11,367 nt of DNA, taken from assembly GCA_016193115.1 (NCBI GenBank), contig JACPSV010000219.1, positions 1-11,367 on the forward strand, read 5' to 3'. The notes below the pieces were generated by a model. That model saw only the letters and a program-made list of their open reading frames with translations. It made no database searches and was not told the DNA's origin. Position numbers and translations under genes: made by a program. The stretch comes from Elusimicrobiota bacterium. GTDB taxonomy: Bacteria > Elusimicrobiota > Elusimicrobia > 2-02-FULL-39-32. This document shows positions 1 to 11,367 of this stretch, one piece after another; position 1 is the stretch's first letter, and the number at the start of each line of letters is the position of its first letter.

Positions 1-1200
1 AACCAACAAGAAATAACACTTTCCGACATTTCCGGAAAAACCGAAACCGTTACAGATCAAAAAACAACCTACTCTGCCCTAGACGGGAAGCACCAATTCG
101 TAGGGACGATAGACTACAAACCCGGCGGAAACTCCACTTTGACAACGTATTCCGGAGGGAACCTGTACCAAGAAGTCGCATTAAACGCTTACAGTATTGA
201 ATATAGAATGGACGACGGACACACAGATATTGCCCCAGTTGCCGCTGGTCAAGTCACAAAAAATTATTACTCTCCCAAAGATCTCCCGTCGCATCACAAG
301 GTCGGTTTGCCGGAAGGCATTACAATGGAGAACGTCAGTTTCTTTGCCGTAGACATGGTAGGAGGCAACATGGGTCAAGTCACATTCGCCCAACTCAAAA
401 CCGGCAAAGACGCGGTCAGAGTTAAAACAGCCAACGGTCAGGAAGGAATAGCGAAGCAACTCAATTTCGCCTACAAAGGCAACGAGATGTCCGCCGTATC
501 CGTGATCGGCAACAGGGTGGAGAAGAAATCGTCTGGAGAGGGCGGGCCTGTCCTGAGCAAAGTCGAAGGGGGCGAGGGTGAAGTGGTTTCCCCACAAGAA
601 ACCATCCTCGCGGGTCACGTCAAGGACGCAGGCGGAAAGTTAGTAGACGCGGGCGTGACCGACACCGGCATCGTCGCCAAAAAAGGCGCGCCCAACCCTC
701 TCATCAAGGGTCATGACCATTCTCGAACCGTAACGGTTGGCAACCCCAAACTCACCCGCGACCAAATGTCCCAATTAGCCTCCGTAGGCATAGACAACCG
801 GACAGAATATTTCAAGAAACAGGAAACATCGGCCAAAGTTCTGGTAGTTGTGATAGACGGCAAACCCCAGACCGTTAAAAAACAAGAGTTTGCCTTCCTC
901 GGCGCCATGAAATCCGAACGCCAGTTCGACGCCAGCGGAAACGCGGTCATAGACAAAAAGTCCGGCCAACCCGTCCCCGCCAAACCCACAGAAATCCTAA
1001 CCGGCACGAAGTTCGGCGACCTCAAAGTTCACAGCCTGTCCACAAAAGGAAAATGGGAACATGTGATGACCTACAACCGAAAGGATGGATCTATCACCGT
1101 TCCTACCACGATAGGCAACCAGACCTACAGCGTGACGATAGACAAGTCCAAGAAAATGACGATCAAGCTGGGAAACAAGACTATCTCACCGGAAAATTTT
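1..1200 (+). other. Beta-rich region at the left edge (residues 1-400)
   Basis: Unrecognised region. It is rich in Thr, Val, Gly, Asn and Lys, with short alternating hydrophobic strands separated by Gly/Asn/Asp turns. Examples are FVGTIDYKPGG (33-43), LAGHVKDAGG (203-212), SVTIDKSKKMTIKLGNKTI (377-395) and the repeated VTVGN/PTTIGN turns. There is no cysteine cluster and no membrane segment. The look is that of an extracellular or surface beta-sandwich or beta-solenoid, but I cannot name a family. It begins mid-domain. The sampled coding-strand lines from about 660 to 1020 are C-rich, unlike the later parts of the gene. Adhesion or a structural stalk is the most natural guess. Confidence 0.5.
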
Positions 1201-4200
1201 GCCAAGGCGATGGATCAAGCGCAGAAAGCCAAACAAAAGAGGGAGCAGGTTGCGAATTTGAAGGAGGGTGAAGCGACGACTTCGGTTCTTAACGAAGGTC
1301 AAGTCAAGGCTCTCATGGTTGAATCCGCAAAGGTAGATGTGGCCAGCAAAGGTTTGGAAGCGGCGGTAGGTAAAAGTTTTCAAGTGGGTCCTTTCCAACT
1401 CAACTTTTATAGCGGGAAAATGGACAATCTACGGGCAGCCAGCAATGCGTTAAACCGTTATATCGTGGTCTCCGCGTTCATGGGAAGTATTGGCCAGTAT
1501 GCCGACGCCAAGTATTGGGACGTCAAAGGAATTTCCAGTGAACGCACGAGCTTAGCCAAAGGTCTAGTCTCCACCGGCATCATGGCCAAGTACGAGAAAC
1601 TAGACCAAGCCAACAAATCTTTCAGCGCATTTCTATCTAACCCCGAAATGAAAACAAAATCAGGACAAACCCTCACCGTCACCCAAGCCCAGAGAGTGGT
1701 TTCGTACGTTGCCGCTGTTCAAGCCGCCCAGACCGCTCGCGCCGGCACACAACCCGGCGGCGCCGGTCAGGCTAGGGGAAGAGGAATAACCGCCTCAGAG
1801 ATTTTAGAAGCTAGCAATCAAGCTATGATTGCCATTGGCGATGTTGATTTTAAATCTGGAGGACGAGACGGAGACAGAGGTGTGTCCCTTTTAGGCGAAT
1901 CCAAAAAGAATCTTGATAAAGCTATTACCAAGGCTCAATCCGGTGATTTAAGAGGCGCGCTCAGTGCATACAATCTCGGCGCTTCTCAACTCAACGGCGC
2001 CATCCGCATTGCCAACACTCAGGCTCAAGCTCAAGCCCCTCCCACGAGAGTTGTGGCGACAAGAGTTGCAGCAACAAGCCAGTCCCCCCGTCATTCCGGC
2101 GAAAGACGGAGTCCAGTCTCCGCCGATCCGACCTCCGCATCTGTAGAAGTAACACCCGTCGTCTCCAGGGATCAAGGTGTCGGTTTCTTTGGAGGTATTG
2201 GCCAACGTCTTGAGAACGCAGGTCAAAGCGCTGCCGGCGCTGCCAGTAGATTTGTCACTTGGGTTACGGGCGGTTCAGCGAACGCTGCCCCAATGCCGGC
2301 CTCCTCTCGTTCGGGCGGGACGATGTCCACACGGTTTGGCTCCCCATTACCATCCCATGGTCCGGGATATCGTCCAACAGCCAGACCTGCGGTTGTTCCT
2401 GCTGCTCGTCCTGCGGTCAGGACTGCTGCCGCACGACCGGCCGCTTCCGCCACACGTCCAACAGCCAGGTCAGCCGCTCCATCTCCACGCTCTGCCGCCG
2501 CTGCTCCGCGGCCTGCAACAGTGCGCGCTCCTGCCTCTCCCACTCAAGGTATTCTTAGAGAAGTCCCTTTACTTTCTGCCTCTGGTTCGGGTCGTGGAAC
2601 TATGTCCAGAAGAGAGCAACAGAAACTGGCAGCCGCGGATAACGCAAGAGTAGACAGAAGAGATGGCGACCTTAAGGTTAATGAGGCCAAATCAAGGGAA
2701 GCTCAATCTGGGTTGAAAGACAAGGAAAAGCGGTTAGACAATGTTTCTGGAGGAGCCGCGCGAGCTCGGTTCACACCCGATGCTATTATCGCTAGATCTG
2801 GGGGGCGTGCAGCGGTTGAAAAAAAATTGCGGGACGATGGAATCATAAATTCTGGCGGAGTGTTTGGAATCGGCGGAGACAGTAGAGAGGTAGTGGATGC
2901 AAAAATTAATGTATGGGCGCTACAACAATCCAATAAAGTTACAGGAACCATCAGAGATGAAAGAAAGTGGCCGCAAGCATTGAGAACGGCTGTTACAAAT
3001 CTTCGAGCCGGGATACAAAATTCAACTGAGCGAGTTCAAAGGTTGACCACTCAGAGAGAATATCTCTCGCGTCCGGTTGTGGTCAACATGCGGGCAGGCA
3101 CGATCCTCCAAGCCGGTCAATCTTATGGAAATCACAGAGTGGTTAGCGGCTCTGCGATCATGACTCCGCTAGGTCCTCGAGCGATAAGCAAAAACCGGGA
3201 CGGTCAATGGGTTTATGAGGGCACAGCGGAAATGGATTCGGGCTTTAAGAAGATGGGGGCAGGGAGAGGGCTGGATTTCTCCAGGGAACACCGTTTCAGA
3301 TACAGTGTGGGTTCTTCAGGAAAAATGAGTCTTTTTAGCATAGATGGCCGCAGGACAGAAAGTCAGACCTTTACTCAAGGGGTTAGGGAATCCGCGCGTA
3401 TCCCCGTGGTAAAAGATGTGGCACGCGTTGCGTTAGCGGGAGGCAAAGAAGGTTTCGTGGGTTCCTCACCAGACGGTAAAGGGTTTACGTTCTACACAAA
3501 AGACAACTCAGTGAGCTACGAGTTTAAAGAGTCCGAACTGAACCCGCCCGGCGGGGCCGGCGGAGAGGCCTCCACGTTAATGATGACCGGGAAACTGGAT
3601 GGTAAAAATTGGAGCATGGACTCCAGGGACGATTTCATGGCGCTTACGTTCAGTTTTGACGGTGGGGCCCTGGTCCAAGGAAAATATGCGCAAGGGTCCC
3701 GCGTGAACTTAACTCAGGGCACGATGTTGTTGGGGTACGTGGCTAAAGGAGCGGATGATAATTACCTCACGTTCAACGAAAAAAGCGGCAACCTGGAGAT
3801 TCTAAATGTGGGAGGAACAGTAGAAAAGGCGACGGCTGGCGGCAGAGTGGTTGAAAGGTATGAGGGTACGATGGAGATGAATGCAGCCGGCCATGCTGTG
3901 GTTCGAACGGCGTATACAGCGCTTTTGGATGGTTCCAAACGAGTGATCTTAGCTGCCGTTGGGGTGGGAGAAAACGCCAGGAAAGTTGTGGCTGTCCAGG
4001 GTCTTGGAAAAGACAAGAAAGCGGAAGTGTATGAAATTGACAGGCGCGGATCTTTAGTGCGAGTTCGCGATCTGGGAAGTTTGTCGGCGCATACCCAGAC
4101 GGATATTGCCGGCGTGACAGGAAAAGGTATCGAACGGGACGAAAAAACGGGAGACTGGCGGCTCGGAGATTTTGCCATGGGTTCTCAGACTGCGGAGTTA

Positions 4201-7200
4201 GTAGAGACGGAAACCGGTCAACAGTTCGTAGTCGGGCAAGGTTTTTCATACGAAGTCGTGGCCGGTCAGACGGTGCAACTTTACGATAAAAATACGACCG
4301 GAGGCGGAGAAAGGTTTAGAAGCGGGATCGAGGGTCTTGTATATGAGGGGAGTTTTAACGGCGAAGGAAAATGGCAAAAAGGCGATCACTTTGTCAGCGC
4401 GGAGCTGGGCAGAGAGCTGGGTTGGAGTCAATTAAGAAATGAGAAGGTGGAAATTTTTACGAATGATAATGGAAGTTTCGTTGCGGTAGACGAAAATACT
4501 GTATTAAGAGTTGGAAGCGGCAACCATTTGGAACAGATGGGGTTGGCGTCGTTCAGGCAAGAATCGTTCCTGGATCACGGAGTTCAAAGAGGCGTTCATT
4601 TTGATTCTCTTAAAAAGGAGTGGACTTTCTCTGAGGGTGCGAGAACAGGTTATGCCGGATGGTTTACGAGTCAGGCAAATCAAAATACGGGTTGGACAAC
4701 AGACACAAACGGATTCACAAGGAAAACCATAAGGGACGGAGATCGAGTCCTGGAAGTCGCGTTAGGAAAAGATATTGGCACAATTGTGGGGAGCAGATTT
4801 AAAGCAGGAGGTTATACTAGGGATGTCTGGGTAAGGGATACGAAAACAGGCGTTGAAACCCATTGGATTGCAAAAGGAACGTATGAAAGCGATTTGGAAC
4901 CCGGGAAGATATTTGCGAGCGAAAGTTCTCTAGCTCAGTCCATGGCTGCGGGCGGGGCCGAGAGAAGTTTCACTGTGCAGAGGGAGGATCAGAATGGAAG
5001 GGTTGTGGACGTGGTCGTTCGCAGCATATTTATGGGAGACAAGGGGTGGGTAGGGGAGAAACCAAACAGCCAAACGGCGGCCTATATTAGGGATCTTGTT
5101 CAAAACCAAAATACGTCAGTTGCGACGGTTGAAAGTTTCAAAACCGCCGTGATGGAAGACGGGAGGGTGTACATTTCTGAAGCGCAGATTGTCGGCGCCC
5201 ATCGTACAACGACGGATAAATTTAAACCTGTTTCTACAGGTGACGCCAGCGGCCCGGGTCCAACTCCGGGCGAGTTTACGATTTCAGTTACAAGCGGTAA
5301 ACTTACAACTAGAGAGGAAAAGGACTCAACAACCGGTAAAACTAAAACTATAACGGAAGTGGGCGAGGCAAGTGTTGAAGTAAAAGGAAAAATTACATTT
5401 TTGGGCCATCTCGGGGAAGGCGGGGTACCAACGTTCAACGCTTCATTAATGAGTCTCGGGAACGTGATTACAGCGTTGGACGGTAGGGCTGCCGCTTTGA
5501 TAGGAGGTGAGTTAGGAGATAAGGATAGCAGGGGTGTTTACATAATTGACGAGTCCGGCAGAACGAAACTGACGTTTGGATTATTTGGCGGAGAACTGGG
5601 TTTTGGCGGTCGTCTCGCGCAATTCGGTTATCGTAGCTCCCAATGGCTGGCCGGATTGGGAGAGGCAAGCATTATTTTTGTTGGGTTGCCCGGGGTTGGG
5701 AACGCTTTTAATTGGTTTGGCGGGAATGAGACCATGGAGAGAGGCATGGTTAAGATGCATGGATTACCCGCAGGTACGGCTCTGAACGATTCGGACAGAG
5801 CGGAAGCTGCGATTGATGTTGCCGTGTCGTTAATTCCCATTCCGGGTCTGAATCTCGCTGTTAAGGGCGGTTCTACTTTACTGAGACTTGTAGGAAAAGG
5901 GTTGGTTGCGGCAGGTGAGAAAGCTGCGGCGGGGACAGTCAACGCTTTGGGTCGTAGGGCAATAACACAGGCAGCGGCTGCAGTCGCTCTTAGAACCGGA
6001 AAAGTTAGTGGATGGCAAGCGGCCAGAACTGCCCTTCACGCTCCACTGGGCGCTGTTGGGAGATTAGCAGCTCAGGGAGTTCGTCGCCTTTTTGGAGGTT
6101 CGGCAGAGGGCGTTATCGGTAGAGGGGTAGTGAATCCCACCGTTAATTTGTTAGGGTCTAATGCGGCTTCTCGGGCTGCAACTGCAGGAGCCAGAGCGGC
6201 AAGTTCGACAGCAGCCAAAGATGCGGCTAAGGCGGCGTGGCAGAATACGGTGAAGTCCGGATGGCAATCTTTTAAAGCCGGCGCTAAAGCAGCTGCCGAT
6301 GCGCCGCTTGCAAGTTTAGCGGGAAATTTGGGGGTAAGAATTTCTGGACTGCTTGATCCATTGATTAAGAATTTTATTGTCAATCCAATTTCGTGGTTTG
6401 TTCGTGAAATGGTTATGCCCACACTTAAAACTTGGATAAGTCGAGCAGCTCAATGGATCGCAGATAAAGCGGCGCCTCTGTTTGAAAAAGGTGTGGGACG
6501 GTTCATTAAGGGAGGTTTCACGGAAGGTAAACTTTTCTGGATACCTATAGGCAAAATTGGCGGTAATGTTGCCAAAGCGGCTGCTTTTGTTGAAAAGAAG
6601 GTTGGAGTCCGTCTGGATAAGGCCGTAGAAGGTTTTGGAAAATGGTTCAGCGCGAATCTTAAGGCAAATATTCCACCGATTATTCTTATAGGACAGTTCA
6701 TTTCCCAACGTTTGGCTCCGCACGCTGTTAAAGTGGTAGATGCACTCATGGTTAGTCAGGGCGCAAAGCAAGCGTATGGCCACTATGAAAATTGGCAGAA
6801 AACTGGGGATAAGGAGTCCTATAAAAAAATGGCTTTAGAAATAGCGGTGATAGCTCTGATCCTTTTTGTGCCGTTTGGGTTAGGAAAAGCGGGAGTATCC
6901 GCGGAAGCGCTCAGAGCCGCTGAAGCCGCTAAAGCTGTAGAAACCGCACAGCCTCTGGCCTGGACATGGAAAAATTGGTCGAGTCAGATAGTTGGTAAAA
7001 CTGTTGATACGTTCTCGCATTTAGGATCTGACTTTACAAAGACTTCTGCAAGCTTTACTAAAGAAGCTCTTCTGGGAGCCAGGAGGTTCGGCACTCTGAA
7101 CGCGATGGGATTGGGGGACCTGATGACTATCCTACCTTCTTCTGAACAGGAAGTGATGGTAGAAATTAACGTAGATGGCAAAAAGAAAATGGTTGGCACT

Positions 7201-10200
7201 GGGAAATTCGAGTCTAAAGGTTTTGGCGGACTCCATCTGTTAAGCATGGAAGAGAGGTACGAGAGTTTTAAGGGTGGGGCTGAGTTTGGAGCCATATTCG
7301 GCGTGGTAGGCCATTTCTTCCAACCTTTATGGGTGGAAATGTTTCCCGTGTTTCGCACATTTTCCATGGGCGGAAAAGCGATTGGCGCGCTTAAAACCGT
7401 TGCGGACACAGTGGTTGAAGGTTCCGGAGAGGTTTTGAGTACCGTTTATTCCGTCACGATTTTCGGTTTGGTAGGGACGGGTTTACATAACTTTGTTAAC
7501 TTTGTGGGACTCGGAGATACAGAGTTAGGCCAGTTCCTTAAATCGGAACCTGTCAACATGGCTCTATCGGTTTTGATTGCCCCTACATCTGGGAGAGGAA
7601 CCTCTCTTGATTTTAGCCGTGCTTACAGGACGTTGAACGGGATGGGTAAGGGAACGGATGTGGCGACGCGCTTAGAGTTTGCTCAAGAAATCCGAAATGC
7701 CAGGGACACTAATAGACCTCTCGAATTCGATGGTGGAAGATCACTCACGAAAGAGGAGTTAAATGGACTTTCAGGGCGCGCGGAACAAGTGACCGCAGAA
7801 ATCCTTTTTGTAAAGGATAAAGAGAGCGGAGAACGCGCGCATCTGAAAGGCGTTCATGAGGCGGTCCGGGAATCTAAAAGTTCGAAATCCGGCGCAGAAG
7901 GAACGGTTGAAGGGCGCTCTGTCCCAACGTACAATGCAAACATAAACGGCAGGCAAGTGGAAGTCAGGTTAACCGACAAGCTCTTGAACGAGCTCGAAAA
8001 CCTTGTTTTTGATCGGCTCGACAAAAGCACGGCGAACCTTGCACAAATGTTAACTATAGAAGTTGGCTCAGAGATTGGAGGTCAACGTAAAGGCGAGACC
8101 TATGAAATGACACAAGGGTTAAAAGATCGCATTGGGGAAGAGTATGCCAGCCGGCTGGATAGGGATACGGCCGCGGAAATAATTAAAGAAGTGGACAACG
8201 AGTTAAATTCAATTAATCAGGATTTGGAACGGTCGGAAACTGGGATTAAGAATTTAACAGATGAGGCAGGAAGAGAAACCTCTCCGGAATTAAAAAAAGT
8301 TCTGCAGGACAACATTGACTTTTATTCAGGGGAGAAGAAAAAGAATGAAGAGAAAAAGAAAGAATTACAGAATTATAAAAATGCTCTGCAAGAAAGAGTG
8401 GACAGTTTTGACATGACCGATGCGCGCAAAGATTTAAAAACATGGGAAGAAAATGCGCGCAAAAAAACAAAACAGGGAGAGGGGCTGAGTGATGAAGGTG
8501 TTATTGACGCTCTTGACAGGATGGAATCCTATAATTCTTTTACACCGAACAAAAAGAAAGCTGTTGGAGAGCGCAAGGAAGAGCTTCTGAATCAATATTT
8601 TGGCGAAAAAAGATCGAGAAAGTATTACGATCAACTTAAAAAAGCGGATGCGTCCGAAGTAAATTCCCTAAAAGAAAGAGCCCAAAAATTGAGGCAAGTT
8701 GAAGAAGGTCAATTTAAAAAATCAGAAGAAACGATCCAGTCTCTGGAACAAGAGATATTACAAGCTGAGCAGGATTTGAGGGAGAATCCTAACCATCCGG
8801 AACGAGACAAGAAGTTGGAACATTTAAGCTCTCTGAAAGATGAACTATCCGTCGCATGGAAAAAACACGAACTCTACTACGATCTCCGCGCCTTGGCGAG
8901 AGGAGATAAAACTTATGAGGAGGTGTTCGGTAATCGCAGATCCGGGTGGGGAGATCAGTTAAGGGCATGGAGAGCCGGAATAAGATCATGGGTTGCCTCG
9001 ACTGCTCTGGGAAGATTCTTTGGAATTGGGGCGGGCGGTGCGGTAAAATTTAGGACTTTCCTCTATCGGGCGAGAGCTGTAGAGAAATCGAGAATCGCCG
9101 CCGACATTGCTTTTCTGGAGGGTAAACTGCGGGCTGGCGGGGGAATAGAAGAAGGCAGTCGCGAGGAACGTTACATTAATATGATCATTAACCGTTTAAG
9201 AGGTGAACAAGGGGATGTGGACAGGCTCTCCCTAAAAACCATATTAAACCGTCTTACTTTAGACGTGAGAGCGGAAGTGAATCACACATTGGAGTTTTTC
9301 AATCGTGTACGGGCGGAAGCAAGAGAAAGTCTCACGCCGGAACAAAGAGAGAATGGGGAAGGATCGATAGAGACGGCTCTGGATGCCCTCTTAGACAGGA
9401 TGTCGGATCCGCTGTACCTGAATGAGAATGCTGATCATCAATCAAAAGTGAAGGAAGCAGTGGGCGATCTTGTGACCAGCATGTTGATAACTTGGGGTGA
9501 AAAATGGAATCAAAACAAAACCACGATTGATGATTGGATATCCAAGATCATGGAGATGGATCCCGCATCAAAAGAGAGTTCAGCAAAGAGTTCGGCGATA
9601 CGCGATCAGATCGCAAGGACAATGTTTGGTGAAGGGCAAAAATCTGATTTTGGGGAAAAGGATCTTACGGTGGCGCAGAAGTTTTTCTTGAGCATGAAGA
9701 TTTCCGAAAACATTCTTAAAAGGAACGTGCCCGCTAACGATTATTGGGAAAGAGCCGTAAATCAAACGGAGATGACAATCAATAATCTTATGGGCAGGGT
9801 TTCCGCGCTGACCATGGGTGGAGGAAAGACGTTTGCTTACTTCTGGTCCATTGATCTCCAGTTTCATATTGGAGGGAAAGGGGTTGCGGAACTGATTGCC
9901 GCAAAAACCACGGACGCCGGCGGGATCACTCGCGGTTGGAACAAACAAATGACGAATGCCCTGGGAATAGAAACGTATAGCGGGAAAGACTACTATGATC
10001 TGGGTACTGAACGATTGGCTGAGCTTTATACCCAGGAAATAGAAGGAGGATCGAGAGGAAGGGTCATCGTCTATGACATGACCACGCGCGGGTTTGTGGA
10101 ACTGAACGCGCGCATGGGTAAAGACGGCGGGGTTCTGGATCGAGCATTGGATCGAGTGAATGTCCGGATCGCCGACGAAGCCGACGTCGCTTCTTTAAGC

Positions 10201-11367
10201 CGCATGGCGTTTGTCATGGGTTCAGGCGACAACGTTGCGGATAAGGAATTTGTAGACCATATTGAGAAACTGATCGCTAAAGTGGAAAAGTTAGGCGCGG
10301 TTAGCAAAGATATCAAAGGCGGCAAGGAGTTAGAAGGAATGGAATTTACTATGAAGGACGAAGAACTTATATTTTCCACGGATTTGGACACGGCTCTGAA
10401 AGATTTGAGGGAAGAGATTAAAAAGGAGACTGGTGACCGGTATAGCAACGATTTGATTGACGCCCAGATAGACCATATTTTTAGGGCCAGAGCCGCGTTG
10501 GAAAAGGAAAAGGTGGGTGAGGGAGGAGGGTTTGTGAATGGGCAGCCTGCCAGCGTGGAGGGAGGGGTGCGCAGGTCCAACACCACGGACCAGAGCGCAT
10601 CCTACAATGTGGCAAAAGTTGTCATGGGGATTCGGGCATTAGAGCGGCAGTATGGAGAAGGCAGTTCCGCGGCAAAGGAGGCAATCGCAAAGGAAGGACT
10701 CAACAAATACAATGTCAAACTATCGGAAAGTGTGGGAGAGTCCACGTTGTCACAGGTATTTAGCCGGGGACGAGGTCGCGTGTTGACGTTTGGCGGGTCG
10801 GGGACAATGGATGTGGCGCGGGAGATCGCTCATTCTATCACTGGCAGCCAGGCTGTGGAGGTACAAGGCGCTAAACTAAGCGATCTCTTAAATGTGATGC
10901 AATCTGGACGCAGGGTTATCATTGGGGATCGAAAGGATGTGATTGCCGCGGAAGTGAAAAGAGTAGTGGAATTCCTGACGAAAGAAGGAGAAATGGATTA
11001 CGGAGAGGTGTTGGGCGCCGTAGATCCCAGCTATTTGCGGGAAATTCTTGTGGGCGCATTGAGGGAATTGGCTGTGGGAGAAGGGAAAAATGAAACGGAA
11101 AAACGTGACATCGCGGAAAAATTTGACAAAACAGTAAAAGAGTTGGAGAAAAAATCGTCCTCCTTGGGCGAGTTGAAAAACGGCCTTGCCAGTGAGTTTA
11201 GCGGTATAAAGAAAGCGGCAGATAAGATTGAAATCATAGATTCTAAGTTGTCAGAGATGAAATCTGAGAAAGTGGCGGAGATTGCCAGGGACGCGAGAGG
11301 GAAGGTGATCTTAACGAATGAAAGCGGGTTGAGGGGCGTAGACTTTGGATATATCAATATCCGGATC
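1..11367 (+). CDS. Giant multidomain protein with embedded SecA-like motor, internal fragment
   Basis: Frame 1 is open through the entire window (3,789 codons, roughly 0.4 MDa) with neither start nor stop, so both ends are missing. The translation has a consistent protein-like texture throughout: alternating beta-rich, helical, disordered, hydrophobic and coiled-coil segments, ending in a recognisable SecA-type ATPase. TGA does not occur in frame, so no code reassignment is needed. The likely setting is a giant gene of the Candidatus Omnitrophota kind, for which membrane segments plus divergent SecA/DEAD domains have been described; this is recalled family knowledge and not a search result. 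The probable location is the cell envelope: beta-rich parts outside, hydrophobic block in the membrane, motor in the cytoplasm. That topology is inferred. No neighbouring gene is visible, so operon and regulation cannot be judged. The coding claim is near certain; the function is speculative. Confidence 0.97.
546..570. repeat. Dispersed-repeat-like sequence embedded in frame
   Basis: The stretch containing CTGAGCAAAGTCGAAGG, preceded by GCCTGTC, matches the widely dispersed bacterial repeat whose usual form reads CCTGTCCTGAGC then GAAGTCGAAGG. In the gene's frame it encodes PVLSKVEG (183-190); on the opposite strand it reads PFDFAQDRP. Both peptides are typical translations of this repeat when it lands in coding DNA. 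Here it sits between two beta-like segments in a Gly/Glu-rich loop (about 179-197), which would tolerate an insertion. The repeat identity is from memory; a search of the host genome for other copies would settle it. Confidence 0.6.
1201..2010 (+). other. Helical region (residues 401-670)
   Basis: After a basic, Gln/Lys-rich helix (AKAMDQAQKAKQKREQVANL, 401-420) the protein turns mostly helical and alanine-rich. Recognisable stretches include DNLRAASNALNRYIVVSAF (436+ region, near 476-494), AQRVVSYVAAVQAAQTARAG (683-base-equivalent residues 563-582) and LDKAITKAQSGDLRGALSAY (638-657). The last of these has the small-residue pattern of a helical-hairpin repeat, but one unit is not enough to call a TPR. 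A Gly-rich loop (about 582-596) divides the region. I do not recognise a family. It may be a spacer or a helical bundle between the beta region and the disordered linker. Confidence 0.4.
2011..2580 (+). other. Disordered low-complexity Ala/Pro/Arg/Ser linker (residues 671-860)
   Basis: The protein loses globular character from NTQAQAQAPPTRVVATRVAA (672-691) and becomes strongly biased between about 781 and 850, where short Arg-Pro and Ala-Ala-Arg-Pro units recur irregularly (RPTARPA, AARPAVR, AARPAAS, ATRPTAR, SAAPSPR). One short hydrophobic interruption (VGFFGGIGQRL, 727-737; FVTWVTGG, 752-759) sits in it. Such segments act as flexible tethers in surface proteins. The DNA is C-rich and open in several other frames here, which is why spurious overlapping reading frames crowd this part of the window. 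It also hosts the dispersed repeat at 2088-2118. Confidence 0.75.
2088..2118. repeat. REP-like palindromic repeat inserted in frame
   Basis: The core ATTCCGGCGAAAGACGGAGT (2093-2112) forms an imperfect hairpin: arms ATTCCGGC and GACGGAGT around a GAAA loop, with one G-A mismatch and one T-G wobble. With its flanks (CCGTC before, CCAGTC after) it matches the common dispersed element that usually reads GTCATTCCGGCGAAAGCCGG followed by AATCCAG. On the opposite strand it reads DWTPSFAGMTG, the usual translation of that element. In the gene's frame it gives SPRHSGERRSPVSADP (695-710), all within the disordered linker. A weaker direct echo (about 16 of 26 positions) lies at 2155-2180. In-frame insertion of palindromic repeats in coding DNA is known from Rickettsia (RPE); this is the same idea, not the same family. 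Confidence 0.65.
2581..3060 (+). other. Charged helical segment (residues 861-1020)
   Basis: The segment is rich in Arg, Lys, Glu and Asp. MSRREQQKLAAADNARVDRR (868-887) and NEAKSREAQSGLKDKEKRL (894-912) read as a continuous charged helix. A loop with GIINSGGVFGIGGD (947-960) follows, then a second helical run NLRAGIQNSTERVQRLTTQR (1000-1019). It marks the end of the disordered linker and the start of normal globular composition. It also coincides with the change from C-rich to G-rich coding strand. No family is recognised. Confidence 0.4.
3061..5232 (+). other. Long beta-rich region with recurring Y-E-G-T/S strands (residues 1021-1744)
   Basis: About 720 residues of alternating hydrophobic strands and Gly/Asp/Asn turns, with many aromatic residues and no membrane segment. 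A strand motif recurs: YEGTAEMDSG (1072-1081), YEGTMEMNAAG (1287-1297), YEGSFNGEGKW (1448-1458) and AKGTYESDLEPG (1624-1635). Weaker relatives are MTGKLDGKNW (1195-1204) and VQGKYAQGS (1225-1233). Spacing is irregular (about 60 to 215 residues), so this is a family of related strands and not a fixed-period repeat. The pattern recalls beta-solenoid or beta-propeller surface proteins, but the RHS/YD consensus is absent. A role in attachment or substrate binding is plausible and unproven. Confidence 0.55.
5233..5640 (+). other. Gly/Pro hinge and short beta unit (residues 1745-1880)
   Basis: STGDASGPGPTPG (1745-1757) is a clear flexible hinge. It is followed by strands FTISVTSGKLTTREEKDSTT (1759-1778) and ASVEVKGKITFLGHLGEGG (1790-1808), then a short helical stretch with the loop IGGELGDKDSRG (1834-1845) and the strands VYIIDESGRTKLTFGLFGG (1846-1864). 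It ends with Gly-rich residues leading into the hydrophobic block. It looks like a small beta domain that connects the putative outer part to the membrane-proximal part. Confidence 0.4.
5641..7620 (+). other. Hydrophobic, Ala/Gly-rich region with possible membrane segments (residues 1881-2540)
   Basis: Charge density falls and apolar stretches appear: SIIFVGLPGVGNAFNWF (1890-1906), VAVSLIPIPGLNLAV (1940-1954), PPIILIGQFI (2225-2234), IAVIALILFVPFGLG (2281-2295), FGAIFGVVGHFFQPLWV (2429-2445) and SVTIFGLVGTGLHNFVNFVG (2484-2503). The 2281-2295 stretch, uncharged until Lys2296, is the best transmembrane candidate. Between them lies a very Ala-rich amphipathic helical run (about 1981-2110). Several segments contain Gly/Pro and are shorter than a classical helix, so re-entrant or amphipathic membrane association is as likely as simple spanning. 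The block precedes the coiled coil and the motor, which suggests it anchors the ATPase side to the membrane. Confidence 0.55.
7621..8160 (+). other. Unassigned mixed alpha/beta segment (residues 2541-2720)
   Basis: The sequence becomes soluble and charged after the membrane block. It contains LEFAQEIRNARDTN (2558-2571), a strand-like stretch AEILFVKDKESGERAHLKG (2599-2617), a Ser/Lys/Gly-rich loop (about 2623-2640), then strands YNANINGRQVEVRLTDKLL (2644-2662) and a helical pattern to about 2720. I recognise no family and no catalytic motif. Confidence 0.35.
8161..8910 (+). other. Predicted Lys/Glu coiled coil (residues 2721-2970)
   Basis: Two long charged helical stretches with hydrophobic residues at heptad-like spacing: AAEIIKEVDNELNSINQDLE (2724-2743) continuing to about 2830, and SLKERAQKLRQVEEGQFKKS (2889-2908) continuing through ETIQSLEQEILQAEQDLREN (2910-2929) to about 2956. 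Lys and Glu dominate, and proline occurs only at the apparent turns (2762, 2930-2933). The pattern fits an antiparallel coiled-coil hairpin or a long stalk between the membrane region and the motor. I judged heptads by eye only. Confidence 0.6.
8941..9750 (+). other. Helical lead-in to the motor (residues 2981-3250)
   Basis: The stretch begins with an Arg/Trp-rich amphipathic segment (SGWGDQLRAWRAGIRSWVAS, 2981-3000) and ALGRFFGIGAGGAVKF (3002-3017), which could lie on the membrane surface. It then runs as mostly charged helices to about 3250. Its last part (TVAQKFFLSMKISENILKRN, 3223-3242) sits where SecA has the helices that precede its Walker A motif. I cannot match it to SecA residue by residue. 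Confidence 0.4.
9811..9831 (+). other. Motif I / Walker A of the motor (residues 3271-3277)
   Basis: TMGGGKT stands where SecA has TGEGKT. The phosphate-binding Lys3276 and the Mg-coordinating Thr3277 are kept. The Glu before Gly-Lys-Thr in SecA is replaced by Gly. Confidence 0.85.
10168..10188 (+). other. Motif II / DEAD box of the motor (residues 3390-3396)
   Basis: IADEADV contains a literal Asp-Glu-Ala-Asp (3392-3395) where SecA has DEVD. It follows the strand VNVRI as expected for Walker B. The glutamate that activates water (Glu3393) is present. The following ASLSRMAFVMGSG corresponds to SecA's ILIDEARTPLIISG. Confidence 0.85.
10783..10806 (+). other. Motif III of the motor (residues 3595-3602)
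   Basis: LTFGGSGT aligns with SecA's LAGMTGT. It is preceded by VKLSESVGESTLSQVFSR (3573-3590), which resembles SecA's NENQTLASITFQNYFR segment, and followed by MDVAREI where SecA has ADTEAFE. This SecA-specific context is the best evidence against a generic DEAD-box helicase. Confidence 0.75.
10993..11226 (+). other. Extra helical insert between motifs IV and V (about residues 3665-3742)
   Basis: SecA has roughly 60 residues from its motif IV strand to the TN of motif V; here there are about 133. The surplus, about 75 residues, is charged and helical (EKRDIAEKFDKTVKELEKKS, 3700-3719, and the run after it). The SecA-like register resumes at EIIDSKLSEMKSEKVAEIAR (3744-3763). Confidence 0.6.
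11311..11349 (+). other. Motif V of the motor (residues 3771-3783)
   Basis: LTNESGLRGVDFG aligns with SecA's ATNMAGRGTDI; Thr, Asn, Gly and the Arg-Gly-x-Asp core are kept. One residue (Leu3777) is extra between Gly and Arg. The window ends six residues later, before motif VI. Confidence 0.75.

Follow-up and report, generated by a model that had tools for sequence, protein, structure and literature searches.

Results

An Open Frame Spanning the Whole Contig

The stretch of DNA analysed here, referred to as the window, comprises 11,367 nucleotides from an uncultured Elusimicrobiota bacterium and is an unbroken internal segment of one giant gene, the product of which carries a predicted SecA-like ATPase motor. 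The window corresponds to the entire contig G000:C222 (positions 1–11367) of the source genome (1.50 Mb in 321 contigs, with a completeness of 80%). Frame +1 (positions 1..11367) contained no stop over 3,789 codons and was open at both ends, which are assembly ends since the window is a whole contig. The five other frames contained 104 to 224 stops each, with a longest opening of 204 codons. Given the base composition of the window, a stop-free frame of 3,789 codons would occur by chance with a probability of about 10^-92. Listing the open reading frames (ORFs) that possess both a start and a stop yielded only 14 ORFs of 104–171 aa, none of them in frame +1. An earlier note on this DNA had described the window as the inside of one giant gene, of which a gene finder requiring a start and a stop would see only shadow frames, and both statements agree with these counts. 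No tRNA, and no RNA family at the gathering threshold, was found in the window. The protein search listed no exact second copy of the window protein (one member, one contig).

With codon usage trained on other contigs, frame +1 was preferred in 64 of the 74 blocks of the window. Five of the ten exceptions were at nt 2101–3000, over or just after a low-complexity linker rich in Ala, Pro, Ser and Thr (aa 691–880, positions 2071..2640, on the forward strand as are all the window features described below), where codon usage did not single out frame +1. The five others were scattered, and no consistent alternative frame emerged. This weak codon signal, which could mark a misjoin in the linker, would fit an open frame created by an artefact of assembly or binning, or by the fusion of two genes. 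The same is true of the origin of the contig, a metagenome-assembled genome (MAG), and of the thin homology upstream of the linker, where BLAST matched aa 622–679 to the position expected in a two-sequence comparison (E = 0.004), a match that phmmer did not confirm (−0.4 bits). From aa 1047 to the end of the window, on the other hand, the protein follows one uninterrupted frame of another genome, G007, which belongs to the same family and provided the best foreign match to the motor region: aa 1047–1838, 2356–2533 and 3059–3789 corresponded, in the same order, to residues 11576–12298, 12693–12855 and 13607–14320 of the G007 giant. A related second piece was present in the same bin on contig C32 (motor 52% identical to that of the window) and was the sole match when the window was compared by blastn to 40 contigs of its own genome. 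A deposited fragment, P0002, was 94.5% identical to the C32 piece. The differences between the window and C32 numbered 281, 196 and 429 at codon positions 1, 2 and 3, respectively (699 codons), the third position being the most variable. With these observations against it, we consider an artefact very improbable.

A Divergent SecA-Like Motor

The motor that the earlier note had announced occupies the right end of the window. Judging from its motifs and from a structural model of a relative, the last 593 residues (aa 3197–3789, positions 9589..11367) are about two-thirds of a SecA-like ATPase of divergent sequence; the contig stops before the last helicase motif is reached. They include a Walker A motif, GGGKT (aa 3273–3277, positions 9817..9831), and a Walker B/DEAD motif (aa 3392–3395, positions 10174..10185), both of which were kept in 12 of 12 aligned rows. 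Close to the end, the segment SGLRGVDF (aa 3775–3782, positions 11323..11346) is taken to stand in place of the MAGRGTDI of SecA, a pairing made by eye beyond the profile alignment.

No Pfam or NCBIfam family was above the cut-off on the window protein, and no SecA family was present among the Pfam/NCBIfam matches of seven motor rows. The best Pfam hint for the motor was Helicase_C, in two of the seven rows (E = 0.0029). A Foldseek search with the model of the G007 motor returned SecA as the best match, followed by helicases. The SecA rows aligned over 359–550 residues, compared to 203–360 for the non-SecA rows shown. Identity to SecA was 11–13% in the top rows, and the relatives of the motor diverged down to 23%. 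The elements of the SecA fold (two motor domains, an inserted preprotein-binding region and a helical scaffold) were found in the model of the G007 relative, on which the fold was judged; the window sequence ends before the scaffold.

With SecA and SecA2, the Elusimicrobiota motor shares the best fold matches, the Walker A motif, the DEAD motif and, in relatives, the QxxGRxxR motif. It differs from them by the absence of a Pfam match, by its low identity and by its setting, as SecA, about 900 residues long, stands alone whereas the motor is embedded in a giant chain. Among the matches listed, the motor always formed part of an open frame, 1,453–18,984 aa in length, some of these frames being cut by contig ends and some of the motor matches being short and weak.

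Size of the Gene and Copies in the Source Genome

The homologous frame of G007 extends from base 2 to base 56,953 of its contig, a stop-free run of 18,984 codons whose 5' end is still open, in line with the expectation that the full protein is longer than the 3,789 residues of the window. Because, in alignments, relatives run on past the point where the window ends for 1,790 (P0004), 3,962 (P0003) and 4,664 (G007) residues, the window's protein is probably longer than 5,500 residues, and it may be far longer. Two complete-looking relatives measure 5,583 and 5,372 aa.

Three other contigs of the source genome, C41, C22 and C10, gave matches in the upstream part of the G007 giant. Its N-terminal repeat region was matched by C41, a stop-free contig of 5,010 bases, and by a frame of 1,176 codons in C22. 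The repeat units of C22 are 79 aa apart around a DDGFG-like motif, and the repeat frames of both contigs are devoid of cysteine. C10 (3,662 bases, stop-free) matched residues 10,565–10,783 of the G007 giant. A direct junction of C10 to the start of the window was considered and found no support in the comparison. The tandem repeats are a likely reason for the assembly break. The three contigs may be shared out between the window's gene and the second copy. The last 2,651 residues of the G007 giant had no match in the window's genome.

The frame of the second copy, on the minus strand of C32, ends at 2,308 codons (about position 903–949), beyond which another frame takes up the homology to the G007 giant, so that either a frameshift or an error of assembly affects this copy. 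Synonymous sites between the window and C32 are saturated (pS 0.79), which makes dN/dS uninformative. The P0002 fragment is deposited as a UbiA prenyltransferase family protein, a name that nothing seen here supports and that was probably misassigned by automatic annotation.

Above its cut-offs, Pfam found nothing in 17,751 of the 18,984 residues of the G007 giant, nor in P0003 and P0006. A sub-threshold match to a putative metallopeptidase (E = 0.0012) lies near the end of the G007 giant. The complete-looking relative P0005 has a precomputed PF03412 domain, which we take to be peptidase C39; by eye, P0004 and P0008 resemble P0005 near the N-terminus. The giant on G007:C20 is followed by genes for an RND pump, a LacI-type regulator, carbohydrate-binding proteins, a glucoamylase-like protein and a solute-binding/ABC transporter.

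Ends of the Giant Proteins and Avoidance of Cysteine

Nine giant frames of at least 2,000 codons had both a closed 5' end and a stop, and a signal-peptide-like start was seen by eye in seven of them; the set includes some frames without a motor of the window type. In one of the two exceptions, from G105, a segment of this kind was present in the neighbouring upstream frame; the other, from G012, contains masked bases. A signal-like start was also present in P0004 and P0005 and was absent from P0003, P0006 and P0007. At the opposite end, 15 of the 17 giant frames with a stop terminated with the pattern [ASQ][AQ], as in AVAQAA, AIAAAA, ALIAEQA and VVAVQQ, compared to 9 of 238 shorter frames (Fisher p = 2.6e-16, an overstated value since the pattern was picked after viewing the tails, many of the giants are relatives of one another and the background contains unfiltered overlapping frames). 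The misfits were two G012 frames. In G007, the giant on C20 and one on C25 have the tail in common, although they are otherwise mutually unmatched. It is possible that the tail constitutes a sorting or retention signal.

The window protein contains no cysteine in 3,789 residues, compared to 619 in 63,704 residues for 153 other frames of at least 200 codons in the same genome (36.8 expected, P = 8.6e-17), a background taken from 38 readable contigs of 60, with the stop-free C10 and C41 excluded, and which may be raised as the frames were unfiltered for real genes. The G007 giant has five cysteines in 18,984 residues, versus 77 in 12,390 elsewhere on its contig. Giants were poorer in cysteine on all seven contigs compared, with p < 0.05 on six of them.

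Distribution in Elusimicrobiota

A single-sequence search with the motor region matched 9 of 60 genomes, the window's own included, and the motor profile matched 28 of 294 Elusimicrobiota genomes, which are an even draw from a larger group (18 of 189 among the good genomes). Presence is patchy, as seven of the nine genomes of the window's own family had no motor match in the 60-genome search. The single-sequence match in G029 was weak and lay outside a giant frame (581-codon frame, E = 3.5e-5), and this genome is absent from the 28 found with the profile. Named protein matches include Endomicrobium and Endomicrobia, which places the motor in two classes. The relatives that received names from protein searches (P0002, P0007 and P0008) are all from Elusimicrobiota, and a scan of named genomes with one motor peptide pattern retrieved five loci, all titled Elusimicrobia bacterium. 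With regard to a viral origin, the motor profile matched 147 stretches of viral contigs, none of which was a relative.

The giant-protein class described in Omnitrophota, to which the earlier note had pointed, is appropriate as to kind, giant genes having been reported in Elusimicrobia, but not as to organism. An Omnitrophota origin is ruled out, as the named relatives at the five motor loci just mentioned are all Elusimicrobia MAGs, and G007 is in the family of the window's genome.

In separate giants of G007 (4,433 codons) and G005 (5,255 codons, contig C42), Pfam recognised a SecA_DEAD domain, with about 35% identity to the SecA of the window's genome. Compared directly, the 4,433-codon giant gave only chance scores against the window and against the other G007 giant. 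On G007:C25 it is the neighbour of a giant of 3,624 codons, and both of them, as well as the G005:C42 giant, have signal-like starts.

Other Parts of the Window Protein

From left to right, the window protein is composed of an N-terminal part, the flexible linker, a conserved region, a Gly-rich hydrophobic region, a charged region and the SecA-like motor. The conserved region (aa 1047–1838, positions 3139..5514) shows 27% identity to its counterpart in the G007 giant. A model of aa 1047–1848, built on two sequences, consisted mostly of strands and was too poor to be trusted (predicted local distance difference test, pLDDT, of 32). The Gly-rich hydrophobic region (aa 1851–2560, positions 5551..7680) is a candidate membrane region by the Kyte-Doolittle scale only, the strongest hydrophobic segments being aa 1936–1954 and 2277–2295. 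The highly charged region (aa 2561–3196, positions 7681..9588, 36% D/E/K/R) is probably helical; it runs into the motor and is conserved with the C32 paralogue. The segments SKVEG (nt 556–570) and GERRSP (nt 2098–2115) in the window, and KRESR...RFRGNDG in C10, resemble in-frame translations of dispersed repeats.

Discussion

We are highly confident that the window encodes an interior portion of a giant Elusimicrobiota protein of the cell envelope with a SecA-like motor. Taking identity and mechanism together, we propose an exported, membrane-anchored giant with its own translocation-type motor, probably acting on its own chain, a proposal that we judge an even call. It is suggested by the succession of a signal-like start, a repeat-rich N-terminal part, a hydrophobic region and then a SecA-like ATPase. 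In this model, drawn largely from the relatives, the N-terminus would be exported by a Sec-type signal peptide and the long repeat-rich part would lie outside the cell. The hydrophobic region would hold the chain in the inner membrane. The motor would sit beside it on the cytoplasmic side and use ATP to push or pull the chain, or to hold it, while it is being exported or afterwards. The C-terminal peptidase-like domain and the conserved tail would finish or anchor the product. More tentatively, and with less than even confidence, the phylum-wide giants with their signal peptide, their own SecA-type ATPase, their avoidance of cysteine and their shared tail may represent self-powered secretion, one polypeptide being both cargo and motor.

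The observation least favourable to a cytoplasmic motor is that the motor half is depleted in cysteine, which leaves room for the idea of a motor delivered into another cell. Under this alternative, the motor would be exported with the rest of the protein and would work in the cytoplasm of a prey or host cell, where ATP is present, with the hydrophobic region serving as an injection pore and the C-terminal half as a delivered effector. The depletion along the whole length of the window protein, of the G007 giant and of the giants on all the contigs compared is consistent with such a delivery, as are the PF03412 domain of P0005 and the metallopeptidase match near the end of the G007 giant. In the portion of PMC3482391 available, SecA-like helicase-related domains appear among the effector domains of the Amoebophilus endosymbiont; if the export of the giant is right, it would have in common with polymorphic toxins and endosymbiont effectors a SecA-like ATPase in a protein leaving the cell. 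The giant differs from them in that Pfam identified no toxin domain or module in the window or in the searched parts of its relatives given above. Moreover, the signal-peptide start and the central hydrophobic region fit a membrane protein, and the avoidance of cysteine may simply follow from the great length of the chain or from the half of it that is exported, so we regard delivery as unlikely.

The motor could also be a cytoplasmic SecA-fold ATPase with another job (an unfoldase, a tether to SecYEG or the ribosome, or an RNA or DNA translocase) that was fused during the growth of the gene. The SecA core is common to helicases, which were the next-best structural matches, and the Helicase_C hint and the divergence of the relatives point in the same direction. 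However, the SecA alignments are longer than the non-SecA ones, so the fit exceeds the shared core, and the motor comes after the hydrophobic region in proteins that mostly start signal-like. We find this explanation doubtful and retain the exported, membrane-held giant as our preferred reading.

Most giant genes reportedly encode divergent SecA DEAD helicase domains, according to a preprint by West-Roberts et al. The Omnitrophota giants of these authors, likened here by description only, resemble the Elusimicrobiota family by their very long frames, hydrophobic segments and few recognisable domains. They belong to another phylum, whereas the Elusimicrobiota motor is below Pfam/NCBIfam detection and forms one family that includes Endomicrobia. 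Giant ORFs of Omnitrophota are described in the accessible part of PMC10066038, and that of PMC13104272 mentions proteins of more than 40,000 residues from Omnitrophota and Oscillospiraceae, with a citation of West-Roberts et al. Excerpts of PMC12057145 report giant genes as common in Omnitrophota, Elusimicrobia and CG03. In the sections available of PMC11573180, Elusimicrobiota are named as enriched in proteins of more than 5,000 aa, the same phylum and the same size class as the complete-looking relatives, and, among the enriched phyla, only the huge proteins of Planctomycetota received COG assignments; the word “SecA” is absent from its main text. Giant genes in Elusimicrobia were already reported, and the family of Elusimicrobiota giants with a SecA-like motor is apparently undescribed, as we found no description of it in the open-access literature searched.

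Standard annotation sees nothing in such contigs, and giants with a SecA motor are now placed in a second phylum, which includes gut symbionts among its members. To our knowledge, the route by which bacteria export chains that count 5,000 to 20,000 residues or more has not been explained. The giant family offers defined pieces, namely the motor, the hydrophobic region and the tail. If the proposed model is true, the export of very long chains would have a direct and testable answer in a motor that forms part of the cargo.
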